A DNA stretch of 64,000 nucleotides from Erysipelotrichaceae bacterium (lineage in GTDB: Bacteria > Bacillota_I > Bacilli_A > Erysipelotrichales > Erysipelotrichaceae), in NCBI GenBank assembly GCA_017512885.1, contig JAFWEP010000004.1, forward strand, positions 1 to 64,000. The letters are read 5' to 3'. This document shows, piece by piece, positions 476-21,756 of the stretch. The stretch's first letter is position 1. Each line of letters starts with the position of its first letter. Below the pieces are notes generated by a model. That model did no database searches. It saw only the letters and a list, made by a program, of their open reading frames with translations, and was not told the origin of the DNA. A program made the translations under genes and the position numbers.

Positions 476-3400
476 TTATTTGACGGTAACGCTCTTCCAG
501 GAGCTGTACTGGCTCCAGGTCGTGCCACGGGATTTATTGGTCTTCTGACAACGGATACGGAAGACATAGGTCGTTCCGGAAGTGAGATCCTCGATCGTCT
601 GAGACGTTTCTTTGGTCTGCTCCGCTTTCTTCCAGGTCGCTCCATTGTCAACAGAGTACTGCACTTCATAGCCATGAGCTTCTACTTCTGCCCAGTTAAG
701 GGTCACCGTGCCTTTCTTCGAAGATGTTACCGAAGAGAAGACAGGCTGACGCAGTCTGTATAAAGGCAGACCGTAGGTATCATAGATCAGTTCGCCCTTC
801 TCGTTCTTTAAGGCTACCGAGTAGATATAGCCCCTGCCGTAGTTGCCTTTCACATCCGTATCGATGTACTTGCATTCCCTGCCTTCCATCTTTACGGAAG
901 AGGCATCTACCGTTGCGGCTTCCTTCCACTGACCGTTCTCCTTACGCATGATGATGTACTCTTTCGCTCCACTCTCAGGCAGCCAGCGAATATCCGCACC
1001 CTTGGCCGAGTTATAGACAGCTGTCAGCTTGATCTTCTGAACAGGAGCCTGATAGCCGACCTTAGCCCAGTCGGAATACTGAGAGTACGTTCTGCCGCGG
1101 TCCTTGTTGTCCTTGAAGCAACGCATACGGAAGGTAAGTCCAGCTGTATTGCCGAGTTCATCGATGGTCTGTTCCGGGCTCTTCGTTTCCGGAGCTTTCT
1201 TCCAGGTCTTGCCGCCGTCAGCGGAATACTGAACTTCATAACCATGCGCATCCAGTTTCTTCCAACTCAGACTGACCGAACCATCCCCGTTATCCTTAAC
1301 AGATTCGAATACCGGTTTATCCAGACGATACAGCGGCAGACCATAGGTATCATACTTCAGCTCTCCGTTCTCATCTTTAACAGCGACAGAATAGATGAAT
1401 CCATCACCGTAGGATCCGGCTACTTCCGTATCGACGAACTTATAGTTTCCGCCTTCTTTCTGCAGATCTGCAGCCTTCACGGCAGCGACCTGCTTCCATT
1501 CGCCCTTTTCTTTGCGCATGATGACGTACTCTTCAGCGCCTTCCAAAGGTTTGAAGCGCAGATCGGCACCGCGTGCAGAGTTATAGACGGCAGTCACTTC
1601 CGGAACTTTTGCCGGAGAGACGGTCTTCTCCCATTTCGCGGTGAGTTCGATATCGGCAGTAACTGCAGCGGAGAAGTCATAGCTTTCCTTGCCAGCATAC
1701 CAGCCCTGGAAGGTATAGCCTTCTCTGGACGGATCAGCAGGTCTATTGGCCTTTTCACCGTGTTTCACTTCAACGGAAGAGACCGTTTTGCCTTCGGACT
1801 TGAAGGTGACGGTATAGACATTGAGTTCCCACTTGGCGGTGAGCTCTACATCTTCTGTAACTGCAGAAGCGAAGTCATAGGCTTCTTCGCCGAGATACCA
1901 GCCCTGGAAGGAGTAGCCTTCCTTGGACGGATCGGCAGGCTTGGCAGCCTTCTCTGCGTAGTCGACCGTATCTTTCCTGTACTCTTCACCGTCAACAGTG
2001 TATGTAACGGTGAAGGTGTCGATCTCCCATTTTGCCGTTAACGTTACGTTATCACGTACCGCAGACGCAAAGTCGAAACTGTTTTCACGGTCGTACCAGC
2101 CAAGCAGATGATAACCTTCTTTCACCGGTGTTTCCGGACGGTCGACTTTCTGTCCTTCATCGATCGTAACAGTTCTGGTCTCCTCACCGTTTGCCGGATC
2201 GAAGGTGACTGTGACCTGTTTGATCCAGTTCAGTTCATAGACCGCATCTTTCGTAACCGTTTCCGCAACTGCCGGCGTCCACAGGTCTTCTTCGTTCAGA
2301 CGGTAACCCTCGCGTGTCGGAATATCCTGTTCCTTCGTAAAGGAAGGAGTTTCTTTACCGTACTCAACGATGGATCTCTCCAGTACATTACCCATACCGT
2401 CAGTATAGATAACGACTTTCTCATCACCCGCCCAGGTCGCTGCATAGACTGCATCGCCCTTAACGGTCTCCGCTACTTCCGGAGTCCAGCCGGTGAAGTG
2501 ATAGTTCTCCTTGACCGGATCTGCCGGTCTCGGAGTATCCTTGCCGTATTCTACCGTTTCCAGCAGATATTCTTCGTTATCGTCTACGACGTAACGGATC
2601 GTATACTTATTGACCGTGAACTGTGCATTCAGCTGGATATCCGCTGTTACGGCAGCAGAGAAGTCATAGGCTTTACCGTCTTTTTTCCAGGAAGCGAAGG
2701 TATGACCTTCCTTGATCGGATCCGTTGCCGGAGCAGCTGCCTTAGAGCCGTGTTCAACGGTCTCTTCGGCATACTTCTCTCCGTCAACGAGATAAGTGAC
2801 CGTGTACTTGTTGATATCCCACTTGGCGGTGAGTTCTACATTTTCTGTAACTGCTGCAGAGAAGTCGTAGGCTTCTTCACCAAGATACCAGCCCAGGAAG
2901 GAGTAGCCTTCCTTGGACGGATCGGCAGGCTTGGTGGCCTTTCGGCCGTCCGCAATGATCTGTTCTACGATCGCCGGAGCACCTCCGTCAACATTGAAAC
3001 TAACCGTATGGCTCTTGACCACTTCATACTTCCCGGCATAGTCGCCTTCTTCGAGCTTGACGCAGATATAGCCTTCTGCGAGTTCTTCTTCCTTTACTTC
3101 TTTAGAAGCGATGATACGTGCGTCTTCCGCCGGCTGAACGAAATCCTGAACGGCCTGGTTTCCTTCACCGTAAGCGTAGGAGGCGATGCCTTCCGCATTG
3201 TCGGAAAGGAAGATGCCGCCGGTGACACTGACTGCCGGTTCTCCGCCCGGATAGCCGCAGTTATCGATCAGTAAAGCGTCGCCGGTCGCATTGGCGCCGT
3301 TGCCGTTATAGCTGTAGTCTTTCTTCTCGCCGGTCGCGATCAGCGTACCGCCGGAGATGTTCAGAGTACCGGACTTCTGGTAAACGGCGGTAGGACCGCT

Positions 3401-6400
3401 GATCGTACCGGAAGTGATATTGACGGTGCCCTCATTGGGGTGATAGAGAGCGGGTGCGTTCTGAGAGGACAGTGTACCGCTGATGTTGAAGGTGTAGCCG
3501 CCCTTGCCTGCGCTGCCGTTGCCGGCCAAAGCGAAGCTGTTTTCAGCGCTCAGGGTGCCCTTCACATTGATGATCGCCGGACCGAAGGCTGCGGCCGGAG
3601 AGACCTTGCCTGTACCGTTGAGCGTCGCATCTTCTTCGATGTTCAGCGTACCGCCGTTCATCGTGAACAGCTGGCTCATGTTGCCCTTGGCGTCGACCGT
3701 ACCGTTCTTCACGGTGACTTCGCCGCCGTTCACCGTCAGGTAAGCGCCGTTCATGAGCAGGGTATGACCGCCGAGATCCAGGGTGAAGGAAGTGCCTTCT
3801 GCGACCGTGAGACGGTTGAAGATGCCCGGGGCTGTCGCATCCTTGTTTAAGAAGATCGTCTTGCCTTCGCTGCCCTTGACAGCGTCATAGGCCGAGTAGA
3901 GCGTCGTATAGCCGACACCGTCGACAGTATAGACAGCTTCATTGATCTTATAGGTCTTTTCGACACTGCCTTCCGTAAAGTTCTTCGCTGCGGAAGTGAG
4001 GATGACTCTGGCGGTGCCGATCGCTTCGTTGTCCGCATAGGTGAAGCTGTATTCTTCTTCCGGCAGGACGTAGCTGCCCAGCTTTGCCGTTACGGCAGGT
4101 TCATACTTATCGTTATTGCCGTAGATGTAGGAAGAGGGAGTAAGCGTGACCTTGACTTTGGAGAAGTCAGCCGGGTCCACGCTGAATTCATGAACGACTG
4201 TACCGTTTTCCGCGGTCCGGTAAGCACCAACGCCCTTCACGGTCGCGATGTAACTGCCGGCAGTGAGCGGCAGGCCGTTATCGCCTAAGGAAGCGTTACT
4301 GTCGCCTTCCTTCACGGAATAGGTAACGGTGTAGTCTTCTTCCGTTAAGACGGTGTCTTCACACTTAACGGTCAGTACCGGCTTCTGTTCGCTGCCGGTA
4401 AAGGTCAGTGCTTCGGAGGTAACGGTAAGGACGACCTCTTTTACCACTTCATAGACGCCATCACTGACTTCCCGGGAGATATAACCTTCTGCCGTAAAGT
4501 CCGTTGCTGTTCCTTCAGCCAGGTTGTTCATCGGGTCGAACTGATTGAAGGTGCCGCCCTTGACCGTAATGGAAGAAGGAGAATAGATGCCGCCCGGATA
4601 GGAAGCTTCGTTCATATCCAGGATGTTTAAGAGATACTTGAAGTTGCCGTTTTCGTCGTAGGTCTCGCCGGTATCCGCAACGGCGCTGAAGGTTCCGCCG
4701 AGGATCTCCAGTTCACCGCCGTAGTATTTCTTATTGCTGCCGGTGCCGCCGGAAGTACCGACCTGAATGGCCGAGGTCTTGCCGGTGTAGCTGCCGCCTT
4801 CGATGATGACCTTGGAAGGATATTCCCCGGCCAGATGACCGATGATCAGCGCATAGTCGCCGCCATAGGTGATGCCGCCGCTGCCGACGCTGTCTTTCAG
4901 GGTAACTGTACCGTAATCGATGCGCAGGGCATAGGCATTACTGCTCCTGCCGGTGAGGGTATGACCATTCAGATCGATGGTCAGGGTGAAATCGGCGATG
5001 CGCGGAGTGTTGCCGCCGAAATTGACCGTTTCCGTCACGTCACTCAATAAGGTGATCGTCTCGCCGCTCTGCGCTGCTTTGAAGGCTTCGCCCAGTGAAG
5101 CGTAATAAGTCTCACCGATCTTTGCGACCGGTTCCACGAAAGTAAGGGAGGCTTCCCCAGTCAGTTCCGGAGCGTCCTTGCGGGCGACCGTAAAGGTGAC
5201 CTTGCCGGACTTGAGCGGAGTGATCGTATAGCCATCTGCCGTTTCTGCTACAGTGGCAGATGTTTCATCATTGCTGGTGAGGATATATTCTTTCAGATCG
5301 ACAGCGACACCGTTGATCTTTAAGGAAGTCACGTTCTCCGCACCATCGGTCACCAGTTTCGACTTGTTGTCGGTCGTGAGGGCGACTTTCGGCGTTACGC
5401 TGATCACGGCCGTATCGTAGTTCTTGCCTTCATGGATCAGCGTGGCTTCGACCTCATAGGAAGCGAGGCTCGCTCCGTCACTTCTCTTTACACTGAAAGT
5501 AGCGATACCGGCCCCGTTCCAGCTGGTCTTGTCGACAAAGAGGACATCTTTCTTATCAAAGGAAAGCTCCCAGCCTGTCTTGTCTTCTGCCGTCAGGGCT
5601 TCTCCGTCGTCCCGGGTGACCGTGCCTTTTACCCTGGCAGTTCCGTCGCCGGCGACCGTATAGCTTTCCTTATCAAGGGAAGCAGTGTAGCTCGGACCGA
5701 TCTTCTTAACGATGCCTTCGACCAGTTCGTAATCTTCCGGCAGGATGATCTTCGTTTCAGCAGTTGCTGCCGCATCCCCTTCCCGCAGGTTCTGGATCTC
5801 TTTCACCGCGCTGCCGTCCGTGACAGTCACGGTGACCGGGTTCGTTGTAACAAATTTATCTTCGATGACGATCTTATCGATACTGCCGCCATTGACGGTG
5901 ATATCGCCTTTCGCTGTATCGATCGTTCCGACATGACCGCTGTTGACTGTGATCTGCTCATAACCGCTGAGCTTGTTCTTGCCGAAAGAAGTGATGGTCG
6001 TGATCTCCGCTCCGTCGACAACGATGGAGTTCCCGGCATTGCTTGTGGTTTTGACATTTGAAATGACGGTTCCCGCACCAAAAGTAACGGTAGCGTTCTT
6101 AGCATTATTCGAAAATGCTTTCGCAGTTACGTTTTCAAAGGTCACGTTTCCGGCTTTGATCTCTGCACCGTTGACGGTCGTATTGGAGACCGAGCACGGT
6201 TCAACGTAGCTCAGGATCAGACTTCCGCCGATGGTAAGACCGTCCAGCTCGGGAGCCGGCATAGGATAGTCAGCACTTCTGGCGCCAAAAGTAAGTGTAC
6301 CGCCAACATTCTTTACAGCAAAATCTTTAACGACGATAGGATTCGTTCCGGCCGCTGCTCCGCTGTTGGAGACAGAAAGACTGCTGTTGAAAACAGCATC

Positions 6401-7651
6401 GTTTCCCAGACTAACCTCAACAGACCCGGCCTTCACAGCTGCAGCATCATTGCCGGAAGTGAAACTGACGGCCTTATTGAAGGTGCCGCCGTTGATCGTA
6501 TCAGTCTTGGTCTCTCCTTCGACGGAACCATAGTTCTGTACTGTCAGAGTTGCGTCAAAAGTTCCGCCGTTAACGGTAAAGGAAGATCCTGCTTCCTGGA
6601 TACCACCGGCATTGAAGGAACTGGTAAAAGTACCGCCGTTGATCGTCATCTTGCCGAACGAGTCATTCTTGATTGCGGTATAGGAACCGCCGTCAAACGA
6701 ACCGCCATTGATGACCATCTCACTGTAAGCACCGCTCGTATTGTCTGCAGCGTTGTACCAGCCATTGGCGATCAGCGACTGCGTTGCAGTCGGATCGGTC
6801 TTTGTGAAGCTGCCGCCTTCGATCGTCAGTTTCGCACCATGGTTGGATACTGCGTAATTGCCGTTGGCAACGACAGAACCTTCTCCGGCAATGGTCAGAG
6901 TGCCCTCATTGAGGACCGTGACCCCGGAATCAGTGGTCAGGGTATGACCGTTCAGTTCCAGGCGGACATTTTTTCCGGCCGGGACTACGATCGCACCATT
7001 GTGGTCACCCAGCAGGACGATCGTCGTTTCAGCTTCACCGGCTGCAGCCAGCGCTTCTTCCAACGTTGCGTAGGAAGTATCACCGATGCCGGCCTGATAA
7101 ACAGCGTTATCTTCGCCGTTCTCATTCCGGACCGGCTCTTCTTCAGCAGGTCCTGTTTCTTCTGCCGCCTGTTCTTTTTCGGCAGATGCCGCTTCTTTTG
7201 TGGGCTCTTCTGCAGCAGGAGTTTCTTCCGTCCCTGCTGCCGTTTCTTTATCAGCAGGGGCAGTCTCCGCATCTTTTTCAGTCTCTTCGGGAACTGTCTC
7301 TCCTGAAGTCTCTTTGGCAGGAGCGCCCTCGCTCAGAGGAACTTCCTCCGTCGGGGTCTCTTCAACTGCAGCTTCTTCGTGCTCCGGTTCAGCAGGAACT
7401 TCCTCAGTCCCCGTCTCCTCAACGAATGCTGCTTCATCTTCAGAAGCCTCTGCCGGACCAGGAGTCTCTTCGGACAGTGATCCCGCCTCATCAGTATTCT
7501 TTTCTTCTGTTGTTTCTTCCGGTACGGTTTCCGTTCCGGATTCTGCCTGCACAGGTGTTTCTGTGACAGGTTCGTCAGCTCTGACGATGTTGACTGTTGC
7601 GCACTGCAGCAGCATCATCGTCGTCAGCAGGATGGACAGTAATTTTTTCAT
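476..7651 (-). CDS. Giant secreted beta-helix/Flg_new repeat surface protein with two C-terminal modules
   Basis: A 2391-residue secreted protein. I chose the ATG at 7651 because GGAGGT lies 7 bases upstream and a signal peptide starts there (MKKLLSILL, cleavage after VRA, residue 25). In order: an acidic Pro/Glu/Thr/Ala-rich stretch (26-185), probably an extended wall-spanning stalk; three parallel-beta-helix-like regions with GGTF and LNGHTL motifs (about 200-660, 860-1090, 1265-1510); a ligand-like insert with FTGSEQKP and SYIYGNND motifs (1100-1260); seven Listeria-Bacteroides (InlB B/Flg_new) repeats of the EGYSFxGWYxxxxxYDF type (about 1550-2012); and two copies of the locus-wide YNSAxGADIRW/Fn3 module (about 2015-2200 and 2207-2391). 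No LPXTG motif is present. It is probably an adhesin-type surface protein; the ligand is unknown. Confidence 0.92.
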   Translation of the reverse strand: MKKLLSILLTTMMLLQCATVNIVRADEPVTETPVQAESGTETVPEETTEEKNTDEAGSLSEETPGPAEASEDEAAFVEETGTEEVPAEPEHEEAAVEETPTEEVPLSEGAPAKETSGETVPEETEKDAETAPADKETAAGTEETPAAEEPTKEAASAEKEQAAEETGPAEEEPVRNENGEDNAVYQAGIGDTSYATLEEALAAAGEAETTIVLLGDHNGAIVVPAGKNVRLELNGHTLTTDSGVTVLNEGTLTIAGEGSVVANGNYAVSNHGAKLTIEGGSFTKTDPTATQSLIANGWYNAADNTSGAYSEMVINGGSFDGGSYTAIKNDSFGKMTINGGTFTSSFNAGGIQEAGSSFTVNGGTFDATLTVQNYGSVEGETKTDTINGGTFNKAVSFTSGNDAAAVKAGSVEVSLGNDAVFNSSLSVSNSGAAAGTNPIVVKDFAVKNVGGTLTFGARSADYPMPAPELDGLTIGGSLILSYVEPCSVSNTTVNGAEIKAGNVTFENVTAKAFSNNAKNATVTFGAGTVISNVKTTSNAGNSIVVDGAEITTITSFGKNKLSGYEQITVNSGHVGTIDTAKGDITVNGGSIDKIVIEDKFVTTNPVTVTVTDGSAVKEIQNLREGDAAATAETKIILPEDYELVEGIVKKIGPSYTASLDKESYTVAGDGTARVKGTVTRDDGEALTAEDKTGWELSFDKKDVLFVDKTSWNGAGIATFSVKRSDGASLASYEVEATLIHEGKNYDTAVISVTPKVALTTDNKSKLVTDGAENVTSLKINGVAVDLKEYILTSNDETSATVAETADGYTITPLKSGKVTFTVARKDAPELTGEASLTFVEPVAKIGETYYASLGEAFKAAQSGETITLLSDVTETVNFGGNTPRIADFTLTIDLNGHTLTGRSSNAYALRIDYGTVTLKDSVGSGGITYGGDYALIIGHLAGEYPSKVIIEGGSYTGKTSAIQVGTSGGTGSNKKYYGGELEILGGTFSAVADTGETYDENGNFKYLLNILDMNEASYPGGIYSPSSITVKGGTFNQFDPMNNLAEGTATDFTAEGYISREVSDGVYEVVKEVVLTVTSEALTFTGSEQKPVLTVKCEDTVLTEEDYTVTYSVKEGDSNASLGDNGLPLTAGSYIATVKGVGAYRTAENGTVVHEFSVDPADFSKVKVTLTPSSYIYGNNDKYEPAVTAKLGSYVLPEEEYSFTYADNEAIGTARVILTSAAKNFTEGSVEKTYKINEAVYTVDGVGYTTLYSAYDAVKGSEGKTIFLNKDATAPGIFNRLTVAEGTSFTLDLGGHTLLMNGAYLTVNGGEVTVKNGTVDAKGNMSQLFTMNGGTLNIEEDATLNGTGKVSPAAAFGPAIINVKGTLSAENSFALAGNGSAGKGGYTFNISGTLSSQNAPALYHPNEGTVNITSGTISGPTAVYQKSGTLNISGGTLIATGEKKDYSYNGNGANATGDALLIDNCGYPGGEPAVSVTGGIFLSDNAEGIASYAYGEGNQAVQDFVQPAEDARIIASKEVKEEELAEGYICVKLEEGDYAGKYEVVKSHTVSFNVDGGAPAIVEQIIADGRKATKPADPSKEGYSFLGWYLGEEAYDFSAAVTENVELTAKWDINKYTVTYLVDGEKYAEETVEHGSKAAAPATDPIKEGHTFASWKKDGKAYDFSAAVTADIQLNAQFTVNKYTIRYVVDDNEEYLLETVEYGKDTPRPADPVKENYHFTGWTPEVAETVKGDAVYAATWAGDEKVVIYTDGMGNVLERSIVEYGKETPSFTKEQDIPTREGYRLNEEDLWTPAVAETVTKDAVYELNWIKQVTVTFDPANGEETRTVTIDEGQKVDRPETPVKEGYHLLGWYDRENSFDFASAVRDNVTLTAKWEIDTFTVTYTVDGEEYRKDTVDYAEKAAKPADPSKEGYSFQGWYLGEEAYDFASAVTEDVELTAKWELNVYTVTFKSEGKTVSSVEVKHGEKANRPADPSREGYTFQGWYAGKESYDFSAAVTADIELTAKWEKTVSPAKVPEVTAVYNSARGADLRFKPLEGAEEYVIMRKEKGEWKQVAAVKAADLQKEGGNYKFVDTEVAGSYGDGFIYSVAVKDENGELKYDTYGLPLYRLDKPVFESVKDNGDGSVSLSWKKLDAHGYEVQYSADGGKTWKKAPETKSPEQTIDELGNTAGLTFRMRCFKDNKDRGRTYSQYSDWAKVGYQAPVQKIKLTAVYNSAKGADIRWLPESGAKEYIIMRKENGQWKEAATVDASSVKMEGRECKYIDTDVKGNYGRGYIYSVALKNEKGELIYDTYGLPLYRLRQPVFSSVTSSKKGTVTLNWAEVEAHGYEVQYSVDNGATWKKAEQTKETSQTIEDLTSGTTYVFRIRCQKTNKSRGTTWSQYSSWKSVTVK

Positions 7652-7688
7652 CTGCATACCTCCATGACATATATCCAATATGGGCAGC

Positions 7689-7716
7689 AAAAAAGGTCAA
7701 TCTATCTGACTTGACC
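7689..7716 (-). promoter_or_regulatory. Stem-loop with T tract in the 5' leader (possible attenuator)
   Basis: In the roughly 108-base leader between the promoter at 7766-7794 and the start at 7651, the minus strand holds GGTCAA ... TTGACC arms. The stem can extend by two pairs past a one-base bulge, with loop AGATA, and six T residues follow. It resembles a weak intrinsic terminator inside a leader, so attenuation is possible. I do not recognise a riboswitch fold. Confidence 0.35.
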
Positions 7717-7765
7717 GTTGGTGCTTATTCACTTAAAAACGAAATATACCCCCATATGCACATCT

Positions 7766-7794
7766 ATGATAGCGCATACACTTCAAAAATACAA
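7766..7794 (-). promoter_or_regulatory. Predicted sigma-A promoter of the giant surface protein gene
   Basis: On the minus strand a -35 box TTGTAT (7789-7794) and a -10 box TATCAT (7766-7771) are separated by exactly 17 bases. The predicted transcription start near 7759 gives a leader of about 108 bases. Confidence 0.55.
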
Positions 7795-7829
7795 AAGTTT
7801 ATTTGTAATGTTGAATTTATTTTGGTAAT

Positions 7830-7857
7830 TAGAAAAGGCCTGCTTTGCAGCAGGCCC
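7830..7857 (-). terminator. Terminator of the 488-aa Big_2 protein gene
   Basis: GGCCTGCT / AGCAGGCC stem with a TTGC loop, followed by TTTTC on the minus strand, 21 bases after the stop at 7878. The stem is nearly the same as the one at 437-460, which suggests duplicated 3' ends. Confidence 0.7.
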
Positions 7858-7877
7858 ATGGGGCAGCCATTCAATTG

Positions 7878-9344
7878 CTATTTGACAGTAACGTTCTTCC
7901 AGGGACTGTAGGGGCTCCAGGTCGTACCGCGGTCCTTGTTGGTCTTCTGACAGCGGATACGGAAGACATATTTCTTGCCGGAAGTAAGTCCGCTGATCGT
8001 CTGTGTGATCGTGGAACCGTCTTTGATCTGCGTAGCTTTGGTCCAGTGGGCTCCGTTATCCAGAGAGTACTGGACCTCGTAACCATGACAGTTCTCCTTC
8101 GTCCAGACTACGACCGCTTTGCCGCTCTGCGTAGAAGTGACCTTGGTGATCGTCGGTGCTCTCAGACGGTAGAGAGCCAGACCCTTGGTATCATAAGCTC
8201 CTTCGACCGATCCCTTCTTGGCGGCAACGGAGTAGATATATCCTTCTCCGTATTTGTCTCTGATCGTCTCATCGAAGATCTTGTAGTAACCGTTCTCTTT
8301 TTCCAGAGAAGCGGCGGAAACAGTCTTGACTTTCTCCCAGGTGCCTTTGTATTTGCGCCAGAGGATGTAGGAATCTGCACCGGTCACGCCCTGGAAGCGG
8401 ACATCCGCACCCTTGGCCGAGTTGTAGATATTGATGAGTTTCGGCTTGTTCAGTTTGACGGTGATCGTACAGGTGGCTGTCTTATTGCCGACCGTTGCAG
8501 TGATCTTGGTGGTGCCGGGATTCTTGGCGGTGATCTTGCCGTTAGCGTCTACCGTCGCAACGCTCGTATTGGAAGACTTCCAGGTCACATTCCTAGCCGA
8601 AGCATCTGCCGGGGTCAGGGTCACCGCCAGACTGGAAGTATTGCCGGCATAGATGGAATGTGTGGACTTGGAGAGTTTGATGCCGGTCAGGGCTGTGTAC
8701 TGATATTGATGGCCCAGAGTCGCTTCCTCAATGTAATCCATGTTGAAGATGTCATCGTAGGACATCAACCAGACATCATAGGTCCCGCTGGGCGCATTCT
8801 TGGCCGCCAAAGCACCAGCCAGATCATAACTGTAACTGTCGATCAGCTTGCTGGTATCATTATCGAGATAGGATTTGCCGTTGTAGTGTGCAGAGATCGC
8901 TTTCTTCGAATAACCGAAATCCGTATTCCAGCGGGCGATACCGTTCTCATCGACATAGAAGCTCGGTTTCGTCAGAGAATAAGTGATCCTGCCGAAATTG
9001 CCGTCATAGATACAGCCTCCCGGATTGGTGCCTTCCCAGTCTTCCGCACACTCATCGATCCAGACCGTGTATATACCGTCCGGTGCATTCTTCCCGGTCA
9101 ATGCGCCCTTCAGATCAAAAGAGAGATCAGAGGGTATCACATCATCCAGGTAGAAGGTCTTCGATGCCGTATTCTGTGCCGAGATCGCATAGGTCACGGA
9201 ACTGCTGCCGGGCCAGTACAGGATCCCATCGCTGTCGACATAAGGTCCTGCTGCCTGTACCTGATGGGCAGAACTGCAGAAAGGCAGTACTGCCATCATC
9301 AGCAGTACACTCAGCAATACTGTCAGGAATGATCTTCTTTTCAT
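7878..9344 (-). CDS. Secreted Big_2 protein with one shared C-terminal module (paralogue A)
   Basis: A 488-residue secreted protein. The ATG at 9344 follows AGGAGG at ideal spacing and begins a signal peptide (MKRRSFLTVLLSVLLMMAV...). Residues about 30-215 hold two related ~90-residue repeats marked by SFDLKGAL / SYDLAGALAAKNAP and GTYDVWL; I do not recognise this domain. A Big_2 Ig-like domain spans about 218-297 (TLTPADASARNVTWKSSN, SVATVDANGKITAKN). The shared YNSAKGADVRF/Fn3 module occupies about 300-488 and ends in WSPYSPWKNVTVK. The next gene upstream is a close tandem paralogue with nearly the same layout and flanks. It is probably a surface-bound, non-enzymatic protein. Confidence 0.92.
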   Translation of the reverse strand: MKRRSFLTVLLSVLLMMAVLPFCSSAHQVQAAGPYVDSDGILYWPGSSSVTYAISAQNTASKTFYLDDVIPSDLSFDLKGALTGKNAPDGIYTVWIDECAEDWEGTNPGGCIYDGNFGRITYSLTKPSFYVDENGIARWNTDFGYSKKAISAHYNGKSYLDNDTSKLIDSYSYDLAGALAAKNAPSGTYDVWLMSYDDIFNMDYIEEATLGHQYQYTALTGIKLSKSTHSIYAGNTSSLAVTLTPADASARNVTWKSSNTSVATVDANGKITAKNPGTTKITATVGNKTATCTITVKLNKPKLINIYNSAKGADVRFQGVTGADSYILWRKYKGTWEKVKTVSAASLEKENGYYKIFDETIRDKYGEGYIYSVAAKKGSVEGAYDTKGLALYRLRAPTITKVTSTQSGKAVVVWTKENCHGYEVQYSLDNGAHWTKATQIKDGSTITQTISGLTSGKKYVFRIRCQKTNKDRGTTWSPYSPWKNVTVK

Positions 9345-9410
9345 GGCACTTCCTCCTGGCGACTCCAAAAAGAGGGAATCTCTCCATATTCAGTTTATTG
9401 GTTCCGTCAT

Positions 9411-9440
9411 GAAAAAAGACCCGTTGAATGACGGGTCTTT
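9411..9440 (-). terminator. Terminator of paralogue B
   Basis: A perfect 10-bp stem (AAAGACCCGT / ACGGGTCTTT) with a 6-base loop begins 4 bases past the stop at 9444 and runs into TTTTTTC on the minus strand. Confidence 0.85.
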
Positions 9441-9443
9441 ATA

Positions 9444-10940: not shown

Positions 10941-11005
10941 GGTATTTCCTCCTGGTGACTCCAAAAAGAGGGAATCTCTCCATCTTCAGTTTATTGGTTC
11001 CGCTG

Positions 11006-11036: not shown

Positions 11037-11039
11037 CCA

Positions 11040-12833: not shown

Positions 12834-12890
12834 GTTGTTGCCTCCCTTGATGGTCATCAAAACCGCCAGGACCATCCTTCATTCATTTTC

Positions 12891-12927
12891 ATAGTAAAAG
12901 ATCCTTGATCATCTTTGACCCGTCAAA
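12891..12927 (-). promoter_or_regulatory. Inverted repeat TTTGACCCGTCAAA with -10-like box, copy 1
   Basis: The near-palindrome TTTGAC-CC-GTCAAA (12914-12927) lies upstream of the gene starting at 12833. A TACTAT -10-like box (12891-12896, minus strand) lies exactly 24 bases from the TTGACG half. The same layout recurs at 18025-18061, and the flanking AAGAAGGGA is also shared. It is probably an operator overlapping the -35 region. Confidence 0.45.
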
Positions 12928-12939
12928 AGAAGGGACTTG

Positions 12940-12963
12940 AAAGGACAGCTGCAGCTGTCCTTT
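12940..12963 (-). terminator. Hairpin after the BspA-repeat protein gene
   Basis: A perfect 24-bp palindrome, with 12-bp arms AAAGGACAGCTG / CAGCTGTCCTTT, lies 8 bases past the stop at 12972. The T tract behind it on the minus strand is weak, so termination may be partial. Confidence 0.6.
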
Positions 12964-12971
12964 CACATCGT

Positions 12972-15900
12972 TTACTTTACTGTCACTTTCCCCCAGGCAC
13001 TGTAGGAGCTCCAGACCGTACCACGGGAAGCATTGGTCTTCTGGCATCTTACCCGGAAGACATATTTCACTCCCGGAGTAAGACCGGTAATTTCTTTGGA
13101 AGTGGCTGTGGTCTGCGGATGGATGCCCCAGTGTTCGCCGTTATCGGTCGATACCTGCAGCTCATAACCCTGGCAGACTTCATCGCTCCAGGTGACCGTA
13201 GCCTTGCCTCCTCCGTCTGCTGTGACGCTCAGGATCGTCGGGGCTTTCAGACGATAGAAGGCTAAACCTTTGGTGTCGTAGAGAAGCTCGTTCTTCTCGT
13301 TCCTTACCGCCACCGAGTAGATATAACCGGCACCGTATTCCTCCTTAACAGCGATATCGATGAACTTGTAGTTGCCTCCGGCTTTGGTCAGAGAAGAAGC
13401 AGATACTTCAGCGATCTCATGCCAGACGCCCTTCTCCTTTCGCATGATGACATAACCGTCAACGCCGGACTGAGGCTTCCAGCGGATATCCGCACCGTTG
13501 GCAGAGTTGTAGACGTTGACCAGGGTAGGCTTGCTGAAGGAAGAATTGTGCGTTCCGACCTTGGCCCAGTCGGAGTACTGGCTCCAGGTAGTGCCTCTGT
13601 CCTTATTGGTCTTCTGGGTACGTAAACGGAAGACATAGGTCTTAGAAGCAAGGTCGAGACCATTGACCGTTGTATTCAGTTCCTTGGTCTCTGGTACCTT
13701 TGTCCAGTTCTTGCCGTTGTCGGAAGAGTACTGCAGTTCATAACCCTGGCAGTCTTCTTCTTTCCAGGTGACATAGACAGAGGTATTGGACTTCTTTTCG
13801 ACGGTCAGGATCAGCGGTTTGTTCAGACGGTAGAGAGCGAGACCTTTGGTGTCATAGACCAGTTCGCCCTTGCTGTTCTTTATCGCTACCGAATAGATGT
13901 AGCCGCTGCCGTAGTTTTCTTTGATCTCCGTATCGATATACTTGTAGTTTCCGCCGTCTTTGGTCAGGGAAGAGGCAGATACCGTCTTGATCGCCGCCCA
14001 GGTGCCTTCCTTGCGCATGATGACATACTCGCTGACACCGTCCATCGGCTGCCAGCGGATATCGGCACCGTTCGAGGAGTTGTAGATATTGACCAGGACC
14101 GGTTTTGTGGGTTGCGGCGCTTCCGTGACCGTTACCGTGCAGGTCGCGATCTTCCCGCCGTCCTTGGTAGTAGCGGAGATCGTAGCGCTGCCGGCTTTCA
14201 GAGCCGTGACTTTGCCGTTGCTGTCAACGGTGGCTACGGAAACATTGGAGGATTTCCATACAACAGCTTTATTGTCAGCATTGGAAGGAGTGACCGTAGC
14301 TTTCAGGGTCTCGCTTTTGCCGACCTCTAAAGACAGGGTGGTCCTGTTGAGGGTGATGCCGGTGACAGGGACCGGTTTGGTGTATTTGTAAGTCACGGTA
14401 TTGCTGAGCTCGGAGAGCGTGATCCAATCGGTATTATATGCATAGAGATTGAAATGATATGTTCCTTCCGGCACTCCTCCTGTCGTGAGGAGTTCTTTGA
14501 GATCGGTCGGCATCGAATAGACGGTCTTTCCTGTGTAAATATCTGCGCCGTTGTCGTACATGATATACCAGAATGCAGGCGGATTGCCTTCGTCATCGAT
14601 CAGTTCACTGGCAGTTAAGAGATCCCCCTCGACTGCGATCGTGATCTCCTGCTTTGTGAAACGTCCCGGTTTCTTGCTGGAATAGACCATCTCACTGCGG
14701 GCCCAATCCACACGTAACGCTTCAACACCGATATAGTACAGAGTGTCCTTGTATTCCATCCGGGAGGTCATATCATAGTAATTCTCTCCATAGCCTGTAG
14801 ACGTCCAGGTAATAAAATTGTCGTCATTCTCATAGAAGAAGACATTGTACTGGAAGTCTTTTTCTGTCATTCCGGCAGGAGGCGTGATATCCCATCTGAC
14901 AGTAAATCCATCCCAGCGGACATTGTAGGGCGTCGGGGAGAGGCTGTCGTTCACGTAATGATAGACGATCTCACCCTGCGCCACCTCGTGACCCCGTGCG
15001 TCTTCAGCGATCACCGTGATCGTATAGTCACCGGTCCGGAAGCCGGAACTGTGCAGCCCATTCCGGATATCATAGTAGCCATCGTAGGCGCCGGCTCCGA
15101 CATAATGAACACCGTCATCGTACTGGACATGATAATACGTGGCTCCCGGGAACAGATCCCAGTGCAGGATACCCTCCTCATCGATCCGAAGATTATGAAT
15201 CTTCGTATCGATCAGACGGAAAGGAATGCGGACATTCAGATAAGATGTACTGCCGTCAGCGATATATCCATCTTCCTCATCGCCATTCACATACAGCGTA
15301 AACGTGCCCCCTTCAGTCTCGTTATAAGGGAATAGATAGTCATTGTCTTCGATCATCAGCGACAGGACAAGATAATAGGTGTTCCCTCCTTCAAAAGTCC
15401 CATCGAAGGAATCCCCATTTTCCAAAGCCCAGGCCATATCATCCAGAGAATAGCGGCCGTTAGATTCCGGAAGATCTATCTCCCCATAAGGATAATCACC
15501 CTCATTCATACCATCTGTGATCTCCGGGAAAGTCACGTAGATCGGATCGACCGCATCCTTCCATTTGGCATACAGGGTCATATTTTCATTTACCGCATAG
15601 GAATAACTAATCTCGTTCGTTCCTTCCGGATCGAAACACCATCCTTCAAAGACTTTGCTGACGACTCCCGTAGGATAGTACTGATCGATATCGATATCTC
15701 CCAGACGCTGTCCCTTGTTTATCTGAACAGAATGGATCATCATCACTTCCGGATCTGTCACCCCGTTCAGATCGAACAGGATCAAAGCCCGGTCTGCACC
15801 GGCAGGATCATATTGATAGTACCCCACCCATGTTTCCGAGAGTTCTTCGCCTCCTTCATTCAGCGCTGTCAGGATGACCGTGATCTCTCCCGGAGACATT

Positions 15901-17963
15901 TCATACATCGCACAGTATTCCCAGAGGTCGATGCTGAGCGTATCCGCCGGAACAACTCCGCCATGGAAATCGCCGGATGAAGGATCCCCAATCCCGACCC
16001 CGACGGAGTACCACACCGCTCCGGAATACTCTTCCCATTGCAGCTCATCACCGGAGATAGAAGCCGCGGGCAATACCGGACGTGTCCAGGTACCAGCCCA
16101 TTCTTCGGCATGTTCGGCATATCCTTCGGTGAGGGCATAAGCATCCAGGAATAAGGTCCCATCCGTCCAGGTCCCGGCCGGCAGTGCAGCACCGTTCAGC
16201 TCCGCGATATCTTTTGAAAGAACGATGTTGTTCAAAGAGGTGTCACGGAACATATTGCCGAAATAGATGCCGTTCTGTGCATTCCATTTGCCGAGATCAA
16301 GAGAAGTCAGCGCTTTGCAACCCTCGAACATGCTGCTGAAATTCTGGATACCGGAGACATCCCAGTCGGAGACATCGATGGCATTCAGCTTTTCGCAGCC
16401 CTGGAACATGCTTTGCAGACCGTAATTCGCAACTTTTGATACATCGAAACCGGAGACATCCAGTGTTGTCAGATTCTTACAGTTCGAGAACATACTGTAG
16501 ATCAACGTAACCTTGGAAGTGTCAAAACCGGAGACGTCCAGAGAAGTCAAACTCTCACAGCTTCCGAACATGGTGCTCATGGATTCAACATTGGAAGTAT
16601 AAAAGTTCGAGACGTCCAATTGTGTTAAGTTTTTGCAGTCATAGAACATATCCTGCATCGTTCCGACTTTCGAGGTATCGAAAGTACTGACGATCTCCAC
16701 ACTGCTGTCGGTAAGAGACTCACAGAAGCCGTACATGGCAGACATGTTTCCGACTTTAGAGGTCTTGAAGTTCTCCCCGTAATAGATGTTCTGCAGATTT
16801 TCACAGATATAGAACATCTGGCTCATAGTCGTGACATTGCGAGTATCGAAACAAGAGATATCGAGCCACTCCATACTGCTGCACTCCCGGAAGAGCCCGC
16901 TCATGCTGGTAACGCCCGATGTATCGATCGACGAGAAGCTAAGTCCGCCAAGCGAGATGCAGCCTTCAAAAGCCTGAGCCATATAGTTTAATGCCGATGT
17001 CGTCTGGAACCCGCTCATATCGAGATATCCCAGGCTGCTGCATTCGTAGAACATACGGCCCATGTCCGTTAAGTTCTCCCAGATCCCGCTGACACTTACA
17101 TCCTGCAGGCTGGTGCAGCCTTCAAACATGGAACGAGAACTCGTAACATTATTGAAATCAAAACCTATCGAACTGAAACTGGCAAGGTTCGAACAGTCTT
17201 TGAACCAGTTCTGCGTGGATTTCGGAGCGATCGTATAACTGTAAGCAGAATAGACCCAGGCATCGGTGATGTCATTCTTGTAGGACTCCCAGGGAAGTGC
17301 GTTCGGATCGGTATCCTCTACCCCTGTAAAGACCCGGATATTATTCATCGTATTTCCATCGGTATCTTCAACCTGGCTATACTGGCGATCATTTTCGTAT
17401 ATCGTATTGCTTCGGAAAAAGAAGAGATTACCGTCTTCGTTCAGCCCGGCATAGGCGTAGTCTTCGCCGCTCCTGACCTCTTCCGTCTTCAGCATAGGCA
17501 CAGCCAAAGGTGCTGCCGCCGGCAGTTCTTCCTTCGTTTCTTCTATAACAGTCTCCTCTGTTTCTGCAGGAAGTTCTGCCTCTGCAGGAACTTCAATGAC
17601 CGTCTCGGTCTCTTCCGCCACTTCTGCAGCAGGTTCCTCAGAGGGAACCGGGACCTCTTCTACGACGATCTCCGGAACAGGAGTCTCTGTTGTTTCTGTT
17701 TCTACAGGAAGTTCTTCTTCCTGCTTCTCTTCGGCAAGAGCTGATCCTTCCGTTACTTCGATAACAGGATCTTCCGGCTCTTCCTGAAGAGTGACTTCGA
17801 TCGTTTCCTCAGCTTCCGTGACTTCCGGGGCCTCCCCTTCCTTCACTTCCGTGGTTTCTGCTGTTTCGCCTTCATCCGCTCTGACATCTGTGCGGAAGAC
17901 GGCTCCTGACAGCAACATCGCCACGGCGATCAGTACGATAAACAGCTTCTTCAAATGATCCAT
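12972..17963 (-). CDS. BspA-like (DUF285) repeat surface protein with Big_2 and two shared modules
   Basis: A 1663-residue secreted protein. The ATG at 17963 follows AAGGAG. In order: signal peptide to residue 29 (VRA); an acidic Glu/Thr/Val/Pro stalk (30-155); a run of about 13 BspA-type DUF285 repeats (about 224-590) with the signature MFxxCxxLTxLDVSxFDTSKV; a Flg_new-like unit (about 724-807); a long stretch of Ig/Fn3-like folds with GDYTITVIAEDARG and TTGGVPEGTYHFNLYAYN; a Big_2 domain (about 1191-1281); and two shared modules (about 1284-1470 and 1473-1663) ending in WSSYSAWGKVTVK. BspA-type repeats are known from adhesins that bind host proteins or other bacteria, which makes an adhesin role likely. 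It has its own hairpin-rich leader. Confidence 0.92.
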   Translation of the reverse strand: MDHLKKLFIVLIAVAMLLSGAVFRTDVRADEGETAETTEVKEGEAPEVTEAEETIEVTLQEEPEDPVIEVTEGSALAEEKQEEELPVETETTETPVPEIVVEEVPVPSEEPAAEVAEETETVIEVPAEAELPAETEETVIEETKEELPAAAPLAVPMLKTEEVRSGEDYAYAGLNEDGNLFFFRSNTIYENDRQYSQVEDTDGNTMNNIRVFTGVEDTDPNALPWESYKNDITDAWVYSAYSYTIAPKSTQNWFKDCSNLASFSSIGFDFNNVTSSRSMFEGCTSLQDVSVSGIWENLTDMGRMFYECSSLGYLDMSGFQTTSALNYMAQAFEGCISLGGLSFSSIDTSGVTSMSGLFRECSSMEWLDISCFDTRNVTTMSQMFYICENLQNIYYGENFKTSKVGNMSAMYGFCESLTDSSVEIVSTFDTSKVGTMQDMFYDCKNLTQLDVSNFYTSNVESMSTMFGSCESLTSLDVSGFDTSKVTLIYSMFSNCKNLTTLDVSGFDVSKVANYGLQSMFQGCEKLNAIDVSDWDVSGIQNFSSMFEGCKALTSLDLGKWNAQNGIYFGNMFRDTSLNNIVLSKDIAELNGAALPAGTWTDGTLFLDAYALTEGYAEHAEEWAGTWTRPVLPAASISGDELQWEEYSGAVWYSVGVGIGDPSSGDFHGGVVPADTLSIDLWEYCAMYEMSPGEITVILTALNEGGEELSETWVGYYQYDPAGADRALILFDLNGVTDPEVMMIHSVQINKGQRLGDIDIDQYYPTGVVSKVFEGWCFDPEGTNEISYSYAVNENMTLYAKWKDAVDPIYVTFPEITDGMNEGDYPYGEIDLPESNGRYSLDDMAWALENGDSFDGTFEGGNTYYLVLSLMIEDNDYLFPYNETEGGTFTLYVNGDEEDGYIADGSTSYLNVRIPFRLIDTKIHNLRIDEEGILHWDLFPGATYYHVQYDDGVHYVGAGAYDGYYDIRNGLHSSGFRTGDYTITVIAEDARGHEVAQGEIVYHYVNDSLSPTPYNVRWDGFTVRWDITPPAGMTEKDFQYNVFFYENDDNFITWTSTGYGENYYDMTSRMEYKDTLYYIGVEALRVDWARSEMVYSSKKPGRFTKQEITIAVEGDLLTASELIDDEGNPPAFWYIMYDNGADIYTGKTVYSMPTDLKELLTTGGVPEGTYHFNLYAYNTDWITLSELSNTVTYKYTKPVPVTGITLNRTTLSLEVGKSETLKATVTPSNADNKAVVWKSSNVSVATVDSNGKVTALKAGSATISATTKDGGKIATCTVTVTEAPQPTKPVLVNIYNSSNGADIRWQPMDGVSEYVIMRKEGTWAAIKTVSASSLTKDGGNYKYIDTEIKENYGSGYIYSVAIKNSKGELVYDTKGLALYRLNKPLILTVEKKSNTSVYVTWKEEDCQGYELQYSSDNGKNWTKVPETKELNTTVNGLDLASKTYVFRLRTQKTNKDRGTTWSQYSDWAKVGTHNSSFSKPTLVNVYNSANGADIRWKPQSGVDGYVIMRKEKGVWHEIAEVSASSLTKAGGNYKFIDIAVKEEYGAGYIYSVAVRNEKNELLYDTKGLAFYRLKAPTILSVTADGGGKATVTWSDEVCQGYELQVSTDNGEHWGIHPQTTATSKEITGLTPGVKYVFRVRCQKTNASRGTVWSSYSAWGKVTVK

Positions 17964-17989
17964 AGGATGCTCCTTCCTGAACGTCCCCC

Positions 17990-18022
17990 TTAAACAAAAA
18001 CTGCAGAGATCGTTCTCTGCAG
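17990..18022 (-). terminator. Strong hairpin terminator between the GH25 and BspA-repeat genes
   Basis: A perfect 9-bp stem (CTGCAGAGA / TCTCTGCAG) with loop TCGT is followed by TTTTTGTTT on the minus strand. It ends the GH25 transcript (stop at 18071). It also lies downstream of the putative promoter at 18025-18061, so it may act as an attenuator for the gene starting at 17963. Confidence 0.8.
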
Positions 18023-18024
18023 TC

Positions 18025-18061
18025 ATTGTAGAAAGAATTCGTTTGGATTTGACCCGTCAAA
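18025..18061 (-). promoter_or_regulatory. Inverted repeat TTTGACCCGTCAAA with -10-like box, copy 2
   Basis: The same TTTGAC-CC-GTCAAA element as at 12914-12927, here at 18048-18061. A TACAAT box (18025-18030, minus strand) lies at the same 24-base distance from TTGACG. With a 17-base spacer the -35 would be GTCAAA, one arm of the repeat, so a bound regulator would contact the -35 region. Confidence 0.5.
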
Positions 18062-18070
18062 AGAAGGGAT

Positions 18071-19864
18071 CTATTCCGCCCAGGCGCTCCTCCAGGCACT
18101 GTAGGGACTCCAGGTCGTTCCGCGGTCCTTATTGGTCTTCTGACAGCGGACCCGGAAGATGTATTTCGTACCGGGGATCAGACCCGAGATCGTCTTTGCC
18201 GTACGATCGGTCTGGGCGCATTTGATCCAGGTCTTTCCTTCATCCGGCGAGTACTGCAGTTCATAGCCCTGGCATTTCTCTTCGCTCCAGCGAACTTCTA
18301 CTGCGTCTCTGCCGACCGAATAGGCCGAGGTGATCTTGGGAGCCTGCAGACGGTAGAAAGCCAGTCCTTTCGTATCATAGGCCGAAACGGATTCTCCCCG
18401 TTTGGCGGCTACGGAATAAATATAACCTTTGCCGTAACGATCCTTCACGGTCATATCGATATACTTGTAGTTGCTGCCTTCATTCTTGAGAGAAGAGACC
18501 GGCAGGACGGCTACAGAACTCCAGACGCCGTTCTCCTTACGCATCAGCAGGTATTCGTCTACCCCGTCCTGCGGTTTCCAGCGGATATCCGCTCCGTAAG
18601 CTGAGTTGTAGACAGCGACCAGTTTCGGCTTACTGAGGAGAGTATTGTTCTGGTACTGGTCATAGGCATAGAGATAAGATTCGCTGAGAGGATGAACGAT
18701 CTGTTTTCCGGCCAGCTGGTCCCAGTTCTCCCGGGTCCCGTAGAAGATATTCAGATCCAGTTTCAGCCGGTAACCGTTCAGGCGGCCCTGATCGGTGTAC
18801 TGCCACATCGTGTAGTTCGGCCAGTACTTGGCATAGGGGGCCGGTCCGGCAGCACTGAGGTCGTAGTTGTAGTTGGCATAGCGGTTGTTGTAGCGGGCGA
18901 TCCAGAGCTTGTAGCCGGCATTGGCGACGGAAGACCAGTCATAATCATTGGCCGTGGACTTGCTCATGTAGATCATCGGCTTTACCCCGGTCTTGGAATA
19001 GATATAATCCAGCCAGGTCTTGGCCCAGTTGACGTCCCACATATTCTCAGCTTCCCAGTCCAGGACCGGAATGCCCTGATGGAAGTACTGTTTGGTATGC
19101 TGGTAGAAGTATTCGGCATCTTCATAAGGAGTATTGATCGGCCGGGCAAAGTGGTAGAAACCGACTTTCTTGCCCAGATTCTGAGCCCAGGTAAAGTTCC
19201 TTACGAAACTGGCATCGGTGACCCCGGCTCCTTCCGTCGCCTTGACGATCACGAAATCGCAGTCGATCGCGGCCAGGTTCAGATCATTCTGGTAATTGCT
19301 GATGTCGATGCCCTTCAGGGTCTGACTGCGGTCAGTGTTCAGCAGCGGTTTCATCTCCTCGATGGTAGCTGTTGCCGTACCGTTCACGACATTGTAGGTC
19401 TTTTTCGTAGTCTCGTAATAAACGGTACCGTTATAGCTGCGGTCGATCTTTCCGTCTTTGATGTAGTACAGTTTTCCGTTCGGCTCATAAAGCACGAGCC
19501 CTTCATAGGATGTATTGACGATACCCTTCTGCAGGTACCACCAGGTGCCGGTATGGGTATCCTGGAAGAGACCGCTGTAAGTGCGGTCGATCAGACCTTT
19601 CGAGACATAGTAGTACTTCTTGTTGGTAGAATAAAGGACGACGCCGTTATAGTTCTTTTCCCAGCGTCCCTTTACGATGTAGTACCAGGCATCATCAGAC
19701 TTGTTATGGTAGAGATCTGTAAAGGAAGTATCCTTTTTCCCATTGGCATAAAGATACTTTTCGCCGTTTTCCGTTCGCAGTTCATAGGTCGTGCTTTCTG
19801 CCCTGACCGGCAGGACCGGACAGAGAAGACAGAGGAAAAGCAGTACCAACAATCCCTTTTTCAT
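18071..19864 (-). CDS. Secreted GH25 lysozyme with glycan-binding-like repeats and shared C-terminal module
   Basis: A 597-residue secreted peptidoglycan hydrolase (GH25, N-acetylmuramidase type). The signal peptide ends at VRA (residue 22). Residues about 24-175 hold aromatic repeats (WYYIVKGRWEKNYNG, YYVSKGLIDRTYSG, WWYLQKGIVNTSYEG, YYIKDGKIDRSYNG) resembling wall-binding repeats. The GH25 barrel spans about 188-390: LKGIDISNYQ carries the first catalytic-site Asp, VLDWEAEN carries the D269-W-E271 motif, and WQYTDQGRLNG closes the domain. The shared module occupies about 413-597 and ends in WSPYSAWRSAWAE, a divergent tail. There is no clear Shine-Dalgarno, and a TATTAT box lies 6 bases before the ATG. 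The module's link to a wall enzyme suggests that it helps retain proteins at the cell wall. Confidence 0.95.
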   Translation of the reverse strand: MKKGLLVLLFLCLLCPVLPVRAESTTYELRTENGEKYLYANGKKDTSFTDLYHNKSDDAWYYIVKGRWEKNYNGVVLYSTNKKYYYVSKGLIDRTYSGLFQDTHTGTWWYLQKGIVNTSYEGLVLYEPNGKLYYIKDGKIDRSYNGTVYYETTKKTYNVVNGTATATIEEMKPLLNTDRSQTLKGIDISNYQNDLNLAAIDCDFVIVKATEGAGVTDASFVRNFTWAQNLGKKVGFYHFARPINTPYEDAEYFYQHTKQYFHQGIPVLDWEAENMWDVNWAKTWLDYIYSKTGVKPMIYMSKSTANDYDWSSVANAGYKLWIARYNNRYANYNYDLSAAGPAPYAKYWPNYTMWQYTDQGRLNGYRLKLDLNIFYGTRENWDQLAGKQIVHPLSESYLYAYDQYQNNTLLSKPKLVAVYNSAYGADIRWKPQDGVDEYLLMRKENGVWSSVAVLPVSSLKNEGSNYKYIDMTVKDRYGKGYIYSVAAKRGESVSAYDTKGLAFYRLQAPKITSAYSVGRDAVEVRWSEEKCQGYELQYSPDEGKTWIKCAQTDRTAKTISGLIPGTKYIFRVRCQKTNKDRGTTWSPYSAWRSAWAE

Positions 19865-19929
19865 GGCTTCATAATATCATGGAACGATGATAGGAGAAAG
19901 AAAATATCGAACGTTTTCACAAAGTTTAT

Positions 19930-19956
19930 ACAAAAAGACGGCATTTCTGCCGTCTT
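19930..19956 (-). terminator. Terminator of the DUF4352/Big_2 protein gene
   Basis: A 9-bp stem (AAGACGGCA / TGCCGTCTT) with a 4-base loop, followed on the minus strand by TTTTTG, 16 bases after the stop at 19972. Confidence 0.85.
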
Positions 19957-19971
19957 CAGCATTCCCAGAGC

Positions 19972-21756
19972 TTACTTCACCACGCACTTCTTCCAGGCAC
20001 TGTACTGGCTCCAGGTACGTCCCCGGTCCTTGTTGGTCTTCTGACAGCGGATACGGAAGACGTAGGTCGTGCCTTTCTTCAGTCCGTCGATCTTCTGAGA
20101 GACGACCGTACCCGGAGTGACTTCTTTCGCTTTCTTCCAGTTCGAACCGTTATTATCGGAATACTGTACTTCATAGCCCTGACAGTTCTCCTTGGTCCAC
20201 TTCACTTCGACGACACCGTTTCCTTTGGCGGTGACGGAAGTGATGGTGGGCTGTTTCAGACGGTAGAGAGGAAGACCGCGTTTATCGTAAAGGGGAGTAC
20301 CGCTGCTGTCTTTGGCAACGGCGACCGAGTAGATATATCCCTGTCCGTAGTTCAACGCTACAGAGGTATCGATGTATTTGTAGTTTCCGCCTTCCTTGGT
20401 CAATGAAGAAGCGGATACAGCAGCAGCCACTGACCAGACACCATTCAGTTTGCGCATGATGTAGTAGGTCTTGACACCGTTCTGCGGTACCCAGCGAATA
20501 TCCGCACCCTTGGCGGAATTGTAGATCGCGACCAGTTTCGGAGCGACCGGAACATAGACCGTACAGGAAGCACTCTTCCCGGAACCATCCTTCGCCATAG
20601 CGGTGATCGTTGCCACGCCTCCGGCTTTCGCCGTCACGAGGCCGCTGCTGCTGACAGTGGCTACCGAGGTATCGGAAGACTTCCAGGTCACATTCTTGTT
20701 GGTGGCATTCGTCGGGGTAACAGTCGCTTTCAAAGTCGTCGTTTTGCCGACATTCAGATAAACAGAAGATTGGTTCAGGGTAACTTTTGTCACATTGACC
20801 GGCAGAGTCCCGTTGCCGACCGCAAGTTTATAGAGCGCATGAACGAAGTCACCGTTATTGTTCATACCCTCAAAGAATACAAATACATATTTCGAACTCC
20901 TGGGGATCGAGAAACACACACGTCCGCTTCCGGTCTTGTTCAGGGAGACCGGTTCGCTGTTGATCCAGTGTTCGCAGTTATACAGGAACTCTCCGGCATT
21001 TCCAAATTCGTCATAGACCTCAATGGGACTCATGGTCAGTTTCCCGCCGTCTTCCTTGAATCCGATATTCTTATAGGTAAAATCGATCTGAACCGCCTTT
21101 TCTCCCTTCAGGATATCCTCCGCCAGGCTGGAACAGCTGCTGTGATCTTTCACCGAAGTGACTTTCACTTCCCAGTTTCCGTTCTCTTTCCAGGTCTGGT
21201 TCAGGGTGTATTGGTATTCGTTATCTCCGTTGATATGGCTGCTGTTCCAGGCAAACTTGGGCGCAGAACTGCCGATATTGACCTTAAAGACGGCTTCCCG
21301 CAGAACATCGTTACTGTCATATTCCGAGAAATGCAGCGTGATCGAAGTACTGTTCTTCGGCAGAACATACCCTAAGACCATATTCGTCACGGAACCGGTC
21401 ATGGAAAGCTCATGACCGACCGTCGAATGCGGGCAGCCCCAGCCGTCTGCCAGGTCGCCATACTGGTCATAGACCTCGTTCGGTATCAGATACAGAGGAT
21501 AACCGTTCTTTCTGGCATAACCCAGATCTTTTACCTGCACCGTGACCAGTACATACTGTTCGCCGTATGCCGTTTCTTCCATGCAACGGTAGTGTTTCTG
21601 AACGTTGGTGACTTTGACTTCCCAGTTCCCGTCTACCTTCCAGGCCTGATTCAGACCATAAGTCACAGCTGCCTGCACCGTAACAGGGATCAGCGTCAAT
21701 AATAAACACCCTGCCAGAAGCAGACTGCAGAGGAGCTTTTTACCCGAATGCTTCAT
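19972..21756 (-). CDS. Secreted protein with two DUF4352-like domains, Big_2 and the shared module
   Basis: A 594-residue secreted protein. The ATG at 21756 has AAGGAGGT at ideal distance. The signal peptide ends near VQA (residue 29). Residues about 31-165 and 170-315 are two related domains that both begin LNQxWKxxGNWEVKVTxVxxH and look like DUF4352-type immunoglobulin-like domains. A Big_2 domain (about 322-400) contains NVTWKSSDTSVATVSSSG. The shared module (about 405-594) has YNSAKGADIRW, YGQGYIYSVA and the end WSQYSAWKKCVVK. LLLAGC resembles a lipobox, but the hydrophobic core continues past the Cys, so signal peptidase I cleavage is more likely. Function is unknown beyond probable surface binding. 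Confidence 0.9.
   Translation of the reverse strand: MKHSGKKLLCSLLLAGCLLLTLIPVTVQAAVTYGLNQAWKVDGNWEVKVTNVQKHYRCMEETAYGEQYVLVTVQVKDLGYARKNGYPLYLIPNEVYDQYGDLADGWGCPHSTVGHELSMTGSVTNMVLGYVLPKNSTSITLHFSEYDSNDVLREAVFKVNIGSSAPKFAWNSSHINGDNEYQYTLNQTWKENGNWEVKVTSVKDHSSCSSLAEDILKGEKAVQIDFTYKNIGFKEDGGKLTMSPIEVYDEFGNAGEFLYNCEHWINSEPVSLNKTGSGRVCFSIPRSSKYVFVFFEGMNNNGDFVHALYKLAVGNGTLPVNVTKVTLNQSSVYLNVGKTTTLKATVTPTNATNKNVTWKSSDTSVATVSSSGLVTAKAGGVATITAMAKDGSGKSASCTVYVPVAPKLVAIYNSAKGADIRWVPQNGVKTYYIMRKLNGVWSVAAAVSASSLTKEGGNYKYIDTSVALNYGQGYIYSVAVAKDSSGTPLYDKRGLPLYRLKQPTITSVTAKGNGVVEVKWTKENCQGYEVQYSDNNGSNWKKAKEVTPGTVVSQKIDGLKKGTTYVFRIRCQKTNKDRGRTWSQYSAWKKCVVK

Follow-up and report, generated by a model that had tools for sequence, protein, structure and literature searches.

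An amplified, mostly C-terminal pair of fibronectin type III-like domains in secreted proteins of an Erysipelotrichaceae bacterium

A module of approximately 185 amino acids that is present in ten copies in seven secreted proteins encoded in the 64,000-nucleotide stretch of DNA analysed here (the window) is almost certainly a pair of tandem fibronectin type III (Fn3) domains. The module is a lineage-specific, amplified variant of an Fn3 pair that ends many secreted or surface proteins of this order; the undescribed surface-anchoring domain that the first-pass annotation had proposed from the sequence alone is not supported. The single likeliest role, with a probability of roughly 40%, is weak non-covalent binding that retains the attached proteins in the cell envelope; a purely structural cap is only slightly less likely.

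The module genes and their genomic setting

The seven module genes are consecutive on the minus strand (positions 476-21798), with intergenic gaps of 44-187 bp, and their products all appear, as judged by eye, to start with Sec-like signal peptides. Gene g1 (476-7690) encodes six Listeria-Bacteroides repeats (PF09479) followed by two module copies (1055-1603 and 479-1036). The paralogous genes g2 (7878-9368) and g3 (9444-10964) each combine a Big_2 domain (8466-8690 and 10032-10259, respectively) with a single module (7881-8447 and 9447-10016). Two copies are found in g4 (11040-12875; modules at 11613-12173 and 11043-11597) and another two in g5 (12972-18026; modules at 13551-14105 and 12975-13532), which also encodes DUF285/BspA-type repeats and a Big_2 domain (14133-14369). 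The product of g6 (18071-19864) consists of choline-binding-type repeats (best at 19442-19510), a GH25 muramidase domain (approximately 18773-19309) and one module (18080-18631), and that of g7 (19972-21798) of a Big_2 domain (20557-20793) and one module (19975-20541). In all seven proteins, as originally described, the last module copy is the end or nearly the end of the sequence, with an SVTVK-like strand as the tail. The copies are 40-81% identical to each other, and full copies in the genome match the module profile with E-values between 1e-74 and 1e-91, which excludes chance as the source of their likeness; the motifs quoted by the first-pass annotation, such as YNSAxGADIRW, are present. 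The N-terminal parts had been considered unrelated; the cargo is indeed varied, but g2 and g3 are paralogues and a Big_2 domain precedes the module in g2, g3, g5 and g7.

The ten copies are part of a larger set. The genome assembly (2.09 Mb in 50 contigs) encodes 16 module proteins with approximately 23 copies, including one that is interrupted (in C19d), and a profile search confines all of them to the contig of the window (C35) and to C19 and C15. The window also includes the start of an eighth module gene (C19f), with an ATG at position 303 and a signal peptide (1-303, minus strand), which runs on into contig C19; its product, a giant BspA/Big_2 protein of about 3.1 thousand amino acids, is cut by the contig end of the window and completed on C19. 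Contig C19, at its right end, overlaps exactly by 85 bp with the left end of the window (1-85), and one open frame crosses this overlap, so that 13 module genes are consecutive. An additional remnant on C15 (locus L009, 198-392), directly downstream of an MBOAT gene, comprises 64 residues of the second half of the module without the first half and is probably a degraded copy.

The 13 consecutive genes, all on the same strand, sit inside a surface-polysaccharide locus. Directly upstream of the array in the window, after a gap of 47 bp, a DUF4422 protein and a WbaP-type priming sugar transferase are encoded (21846-24028, minus strand), which form the near end of the polysaccharide locus that continues into the window with glycosyltransferases; on the other flank are genes for an ABC-2 polysaccharide exporter, its ATPase and family-2 glycosyltransferases. 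In the window, an insertion with TOTE conflict-system primase/helicase genes (PF22548, ResIII) and a Schlafen/AlbA_2 gene (24137-28915) separates the sugar transferase from the glycosyltransferases, and two YfhO-family membrane proteins are encoded in the polysaccharide region (36423-38642 and 61484-63775). The module genes of C15 are located upstream of genes for AMP-binding (DltA-like), MBOAT (DltB-like) and DltD-like proteins, the latter recognised by reading only. This Dlt-like cluster (L009, 393-9057) includes MBOAT genes and DltD-like proteins, two of each; one of the DltD-like proteins (5023-6405) ends in an Fn3-like stretch with a weak match to the first half of the module (full-sequence E-value 0.0018). 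No module was found in the viral contigs and plasmids searched. The variant of this species was not detected in three incomplete genomes of the same genus, and a search for the orthologous locus found no close WbaP match in the same-genus genomes, which are incomplete.

Fold of the module

The second half of the module, reported previously as Fn3-like, matches Pfam fn3 (PF00041) above the gathering cut-off in g1 and g3-g7, that is, in six of the seven genes, and falls just under it in g2 (23.7 against 25 bits). The first half matches no Pfam family, has no significant match among PDB sequences and shows no sequence homology to the second half in a profile comparison. The AlphaFold model of the module, built from a 19-row alignment, has a pLDDT of 91 and a pTM of 0.61, so the angle between the halves is uncertain. 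With Foldseek, the whole model, both halves included, aligns to solved tandem Fn3 pairs with E-values of about 1e-8. Modelled alone, the first half (pLDDT 93) matches Fn3 and other Ig-like domains, with TM-scores of 0.65-0.67 at best and E-values of only about 6e-3; the matches include the carbohydrate-binding CBM56 and beta-glucan-recognition domains. Judged by the alignment of the full model to tandem pairs, the predicted fold of the first half is Fn3 as well, and this first member of the pair is an unusual one.

Position, relatives and possible role

The position of the module is less fixed than it seemed from the window. Nothing is distal to the pair in 13 of the 16 proteins of this genome, whereas it is internal in C15b, C15c and C19d, where it is followed, respectively, by a serine-rich linker with a short cysteine-containing tail, by about 230 amino acids and by an NlpC/P60 domain. 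The tail of C15b (L009, 12725-14872), YHLYSGCRSLARSKN...CKNC, has no Pfam match. The idea that terminal copies form a class of their own was considered and rejected: on the module tree they are interspersed with internal ones, with five changes, albeit with the labels more clustered than shuffled ones. Thus, of the earlier picture of a shared module with secreted cargo and a fixed C-terminal position, the sharing and the secretion stand, and the position is mostly but not invariably C-terminal.

Relatives were detected in two scans. In a scan of named genomes, five loci were found in Blautia/Lachnospiraceae MAGs, four of them with a full module that is 38-43% identical to the g7 copy and ends 2-6 residues from the C-terminus. 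In an order-wide scan, 17 of 316 genomes, spread over 12 genera including the genus of the present bacterium, match the module with E-values below 1e-8; outside this genus, the matches span both halves in eight genera and cover only the second half in three. Genome G634 accounts for ten among the matches listed. Most of the relatives in the order end 2-13 residues after the Fn3 pair. The pair is, however, internal in L073, where BspA repeats, Big_2 and the pair are followed directly by canonical choline-binding repeats (PF19127, E-value 1e-21 for the protein), in L076 and L079, which have another C-terminal stretch beyond it, and in L082, a long series of Fn3 domains that is truncated by the locus; L076 is also a long multi-Fn3 chain. 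Accordingly, the expectation that profile hits would always be C-terminal fails both in this genome and among its relatives. Three proteins (L024, L080 and L086) end in the pair and contain an N-terminal hydrophobic segment that, by eye, resembles a membrane anchor, and two muramoyl amidases also end in it (L075, by Pfam, and L020, by reading). It is these apparently membrane-anchored, amidase and choline-repeat contexts, together with the repeats of g6, that identify the module as this lineage's variant of an Fn3 pair that is common at C-termini. The columns common to the module and its distant relatives are chiefly Fn3 core positions; the details of YNSAxGADIRW and YGxGYIYS are confined to this species and, in part, Blautia.

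The Fn3 pair could be a stable, non-catalytic ectodomain that binds an envelope component weakly and non-covalently, most likely a surface glycan or wall polymer, and would thereby retain its cargo, adhesin-like parts as well as wall enzymes, in the envelope, with avidity gained where copies are in tandem. Several observations are consistent with such retention. In 13 of the 16 proteins the pair is terminal. The genome has one sortase and no match to the LPXTG family, the array lies between the WbaP/glycosyltransferase genes and the polysaccharide exporter, and the third group of module genes is adjacent to Dlt-like genes. Furthermore, in the paralogue pair g7/C15a, purifying selection is stronger on the module than on the cargo, with a dN of 0.18 in the first half of the module versus 0.55 in the part preceding the module and a dS of about 2 in both. 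The similarly high dS also led to the rejection of gene conversion as the sole cause of conservation of this half; the lower dS of the second half in the same pair suggests some exchange there. A role of Fn3 domains in wall interaction has been proposed for Bacillus deacetylases (PMC4505593), and ligand binding by Fn3 domains has been reviewed (PMC7410926). On the other side, the lower dN may only mean that the domain is well packed and the cargo next to it diversifies; three proteins have the pair in an internal position; g6 has its own choline-type repeats, and anchors of known types coexist with the pair in the relatives, where L073 has choline-type repeats and L024, L080 and L086 have apparent membrane segments. 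The Blautia/Lachnospiraceae relatives, as judged from reading the open reading frames, adjoin ordinary housekeeping-type genes, with no polysaccharide locus seen nearby.

Alternatively, and this reading is tentative but has to be taken seriously, the pair might only cap or extend the proteins: without binding a specific ligand, it would stabilise the C-terminus, resist proteolysis and space domains. A linker function is the widespread view of Fn3 domains (PMC7410926), the pair comes after Big_2 repeats, which are likewise a stalk domain, in many of the proteins, relatives are found in apparent membrane proteins as well as in long multi-Fn3 chains, and internal and terminal copies form no separate classes. 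Nevertheless, a pure spacer fails to explain the 13 proteins in which nothing lies past the pair to be spaced from, and the stronger conservation of the module than of the cargo in g7/C15a, at similarly high dS, is not readily expected of it either.

An outward-facing adhesion or contact module, binding host proteins, partner proteins or other products of the array rather than the cell's own wall, seems unlikely. Fn3 folds are common protein-binding scaffolds, and the solved neighbours of the full model, namely fibronectin 9-10, Ihog, EpoR, gp130 and titin, include receptor pairs; the pair forms the distal tip of the three apparently membrane-anchored relatives, and the cargo includes BspA-type and Listeria-type repeats that are seen in adhesins. 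However, wall enzymes (GH25, NlpC/P60, Amidase_3) also carry the pair, and an outward ligand is not something that they require.

More improbable still is a narrower version of the retention reading, in which the pair of this species would be a lectin-like domain specific for the polysaccharide of the surrounding locus; if it were true, a single locus would encode the coat as well as the 13 proteins that it displays. A dedicated C-terminal sorting or anchoring signal, acting like LPXTG or a type IX C-terminal domain and thus the strongest form of the first-pass proposal, is very unlikely and largely refuted by the internal positions in three own proteins and four relatives. The known wall repeats, the apparently membrane-anchored relatives, the Fn3 fold and the lack of a sorting motif also speak against it; in its favour, the pair is terminal in 13 of the 16 own proteins and in most sampled relatives.

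Among the large modular proteins that many Gram-positive bacteria secrete without any recognised anchor, C-terminal Fn3 pairs are a recurrent feature. Should such pairs bind the envelope, a set of 'secreted' proteins would be reclassified as surface proteins. With approximately 23 copies, and with an array that lies within a polysaccharide locus, this genome lends itself to testing envelope binding.

Comparison with known wall-attachment systems

The module proteins lack the C-terminal combination of LPXTG, TM helix and charged tail that typifies sortase substrates, and the Pfam search of the genome found no member of the LPXTG family (PF00746). Over the module, there is no match to choline-binding, WxL, SLH, LysM, GW or CWB2 families (Pfam at E-values up to 10, NCBIfam up to 0.1). 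The first-pass annotation had named membership in a known anchoring family or frequent internal positions as findings against its proposal; internal copies were found, but no known wall-binding family covers the module. Its statement that wall-binding motifs are absent is borne out for LPXTG but not for g6, whose choline-binding-type repeats (PF21540, 30.3 bits against a cut-off of 27) lie outside the module. A literature search with partial coverage returned no paper that describes Fn3 pairs at the C-terminus as wall anchors, which is weak evidence.

Choline-binding and cell-wall-binding repeats (PF19127, PF01473, PF21540) similarly belong to wall-associated modular proteins with comparable cargo, but are unrelated in sequence to the Fn3 pair, co-occurring with it in L073 and forming separate repeats in g6. 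The WxL proteins on the surface of gut bacteria resemble the module proteins in being secreted, sharing a domain, in their case one with a presumed attachment to peptidoglycan (PMC9772566), and being encoded in surface-protein clusters; the module, however, has no WxL match in the Pfam scans at E-values up to 10 and has the Fn3 fold instead. In bacteria, Fn3 domains are treated as linkers or as binding modules, a question that is not settled (PMC4505593, PMC7410926), and for the Bacillus deacetylases spacing was offered as the alternative to wall interaction (PMC4505593). Compared with tandem pairs of PF00041, the module agrees in its second half and in the alignment of the full model to solved pairs, whereas its first half has extra residues and motifs of its own (YNSAxGADIRW, YGxGYIYS and YRL). 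A close parallel is with the C-terminal Fn3 pairs of the same order and of the Blautia/Lachnospiraceae MAGs (G634, G632, G672, G077 and G063; L013-L016), which share the two-domain order, the Fn3 core residues, similar cargo (BspA leucine-rich repeats, Big_2, amidase) and the mostly near-terminal location. These relatives differ from the module in sequence, moderately in Blautia and more strongly elsewhere, and the present genome is set apart by a conserved variant of its own that has been amplified to many copies.
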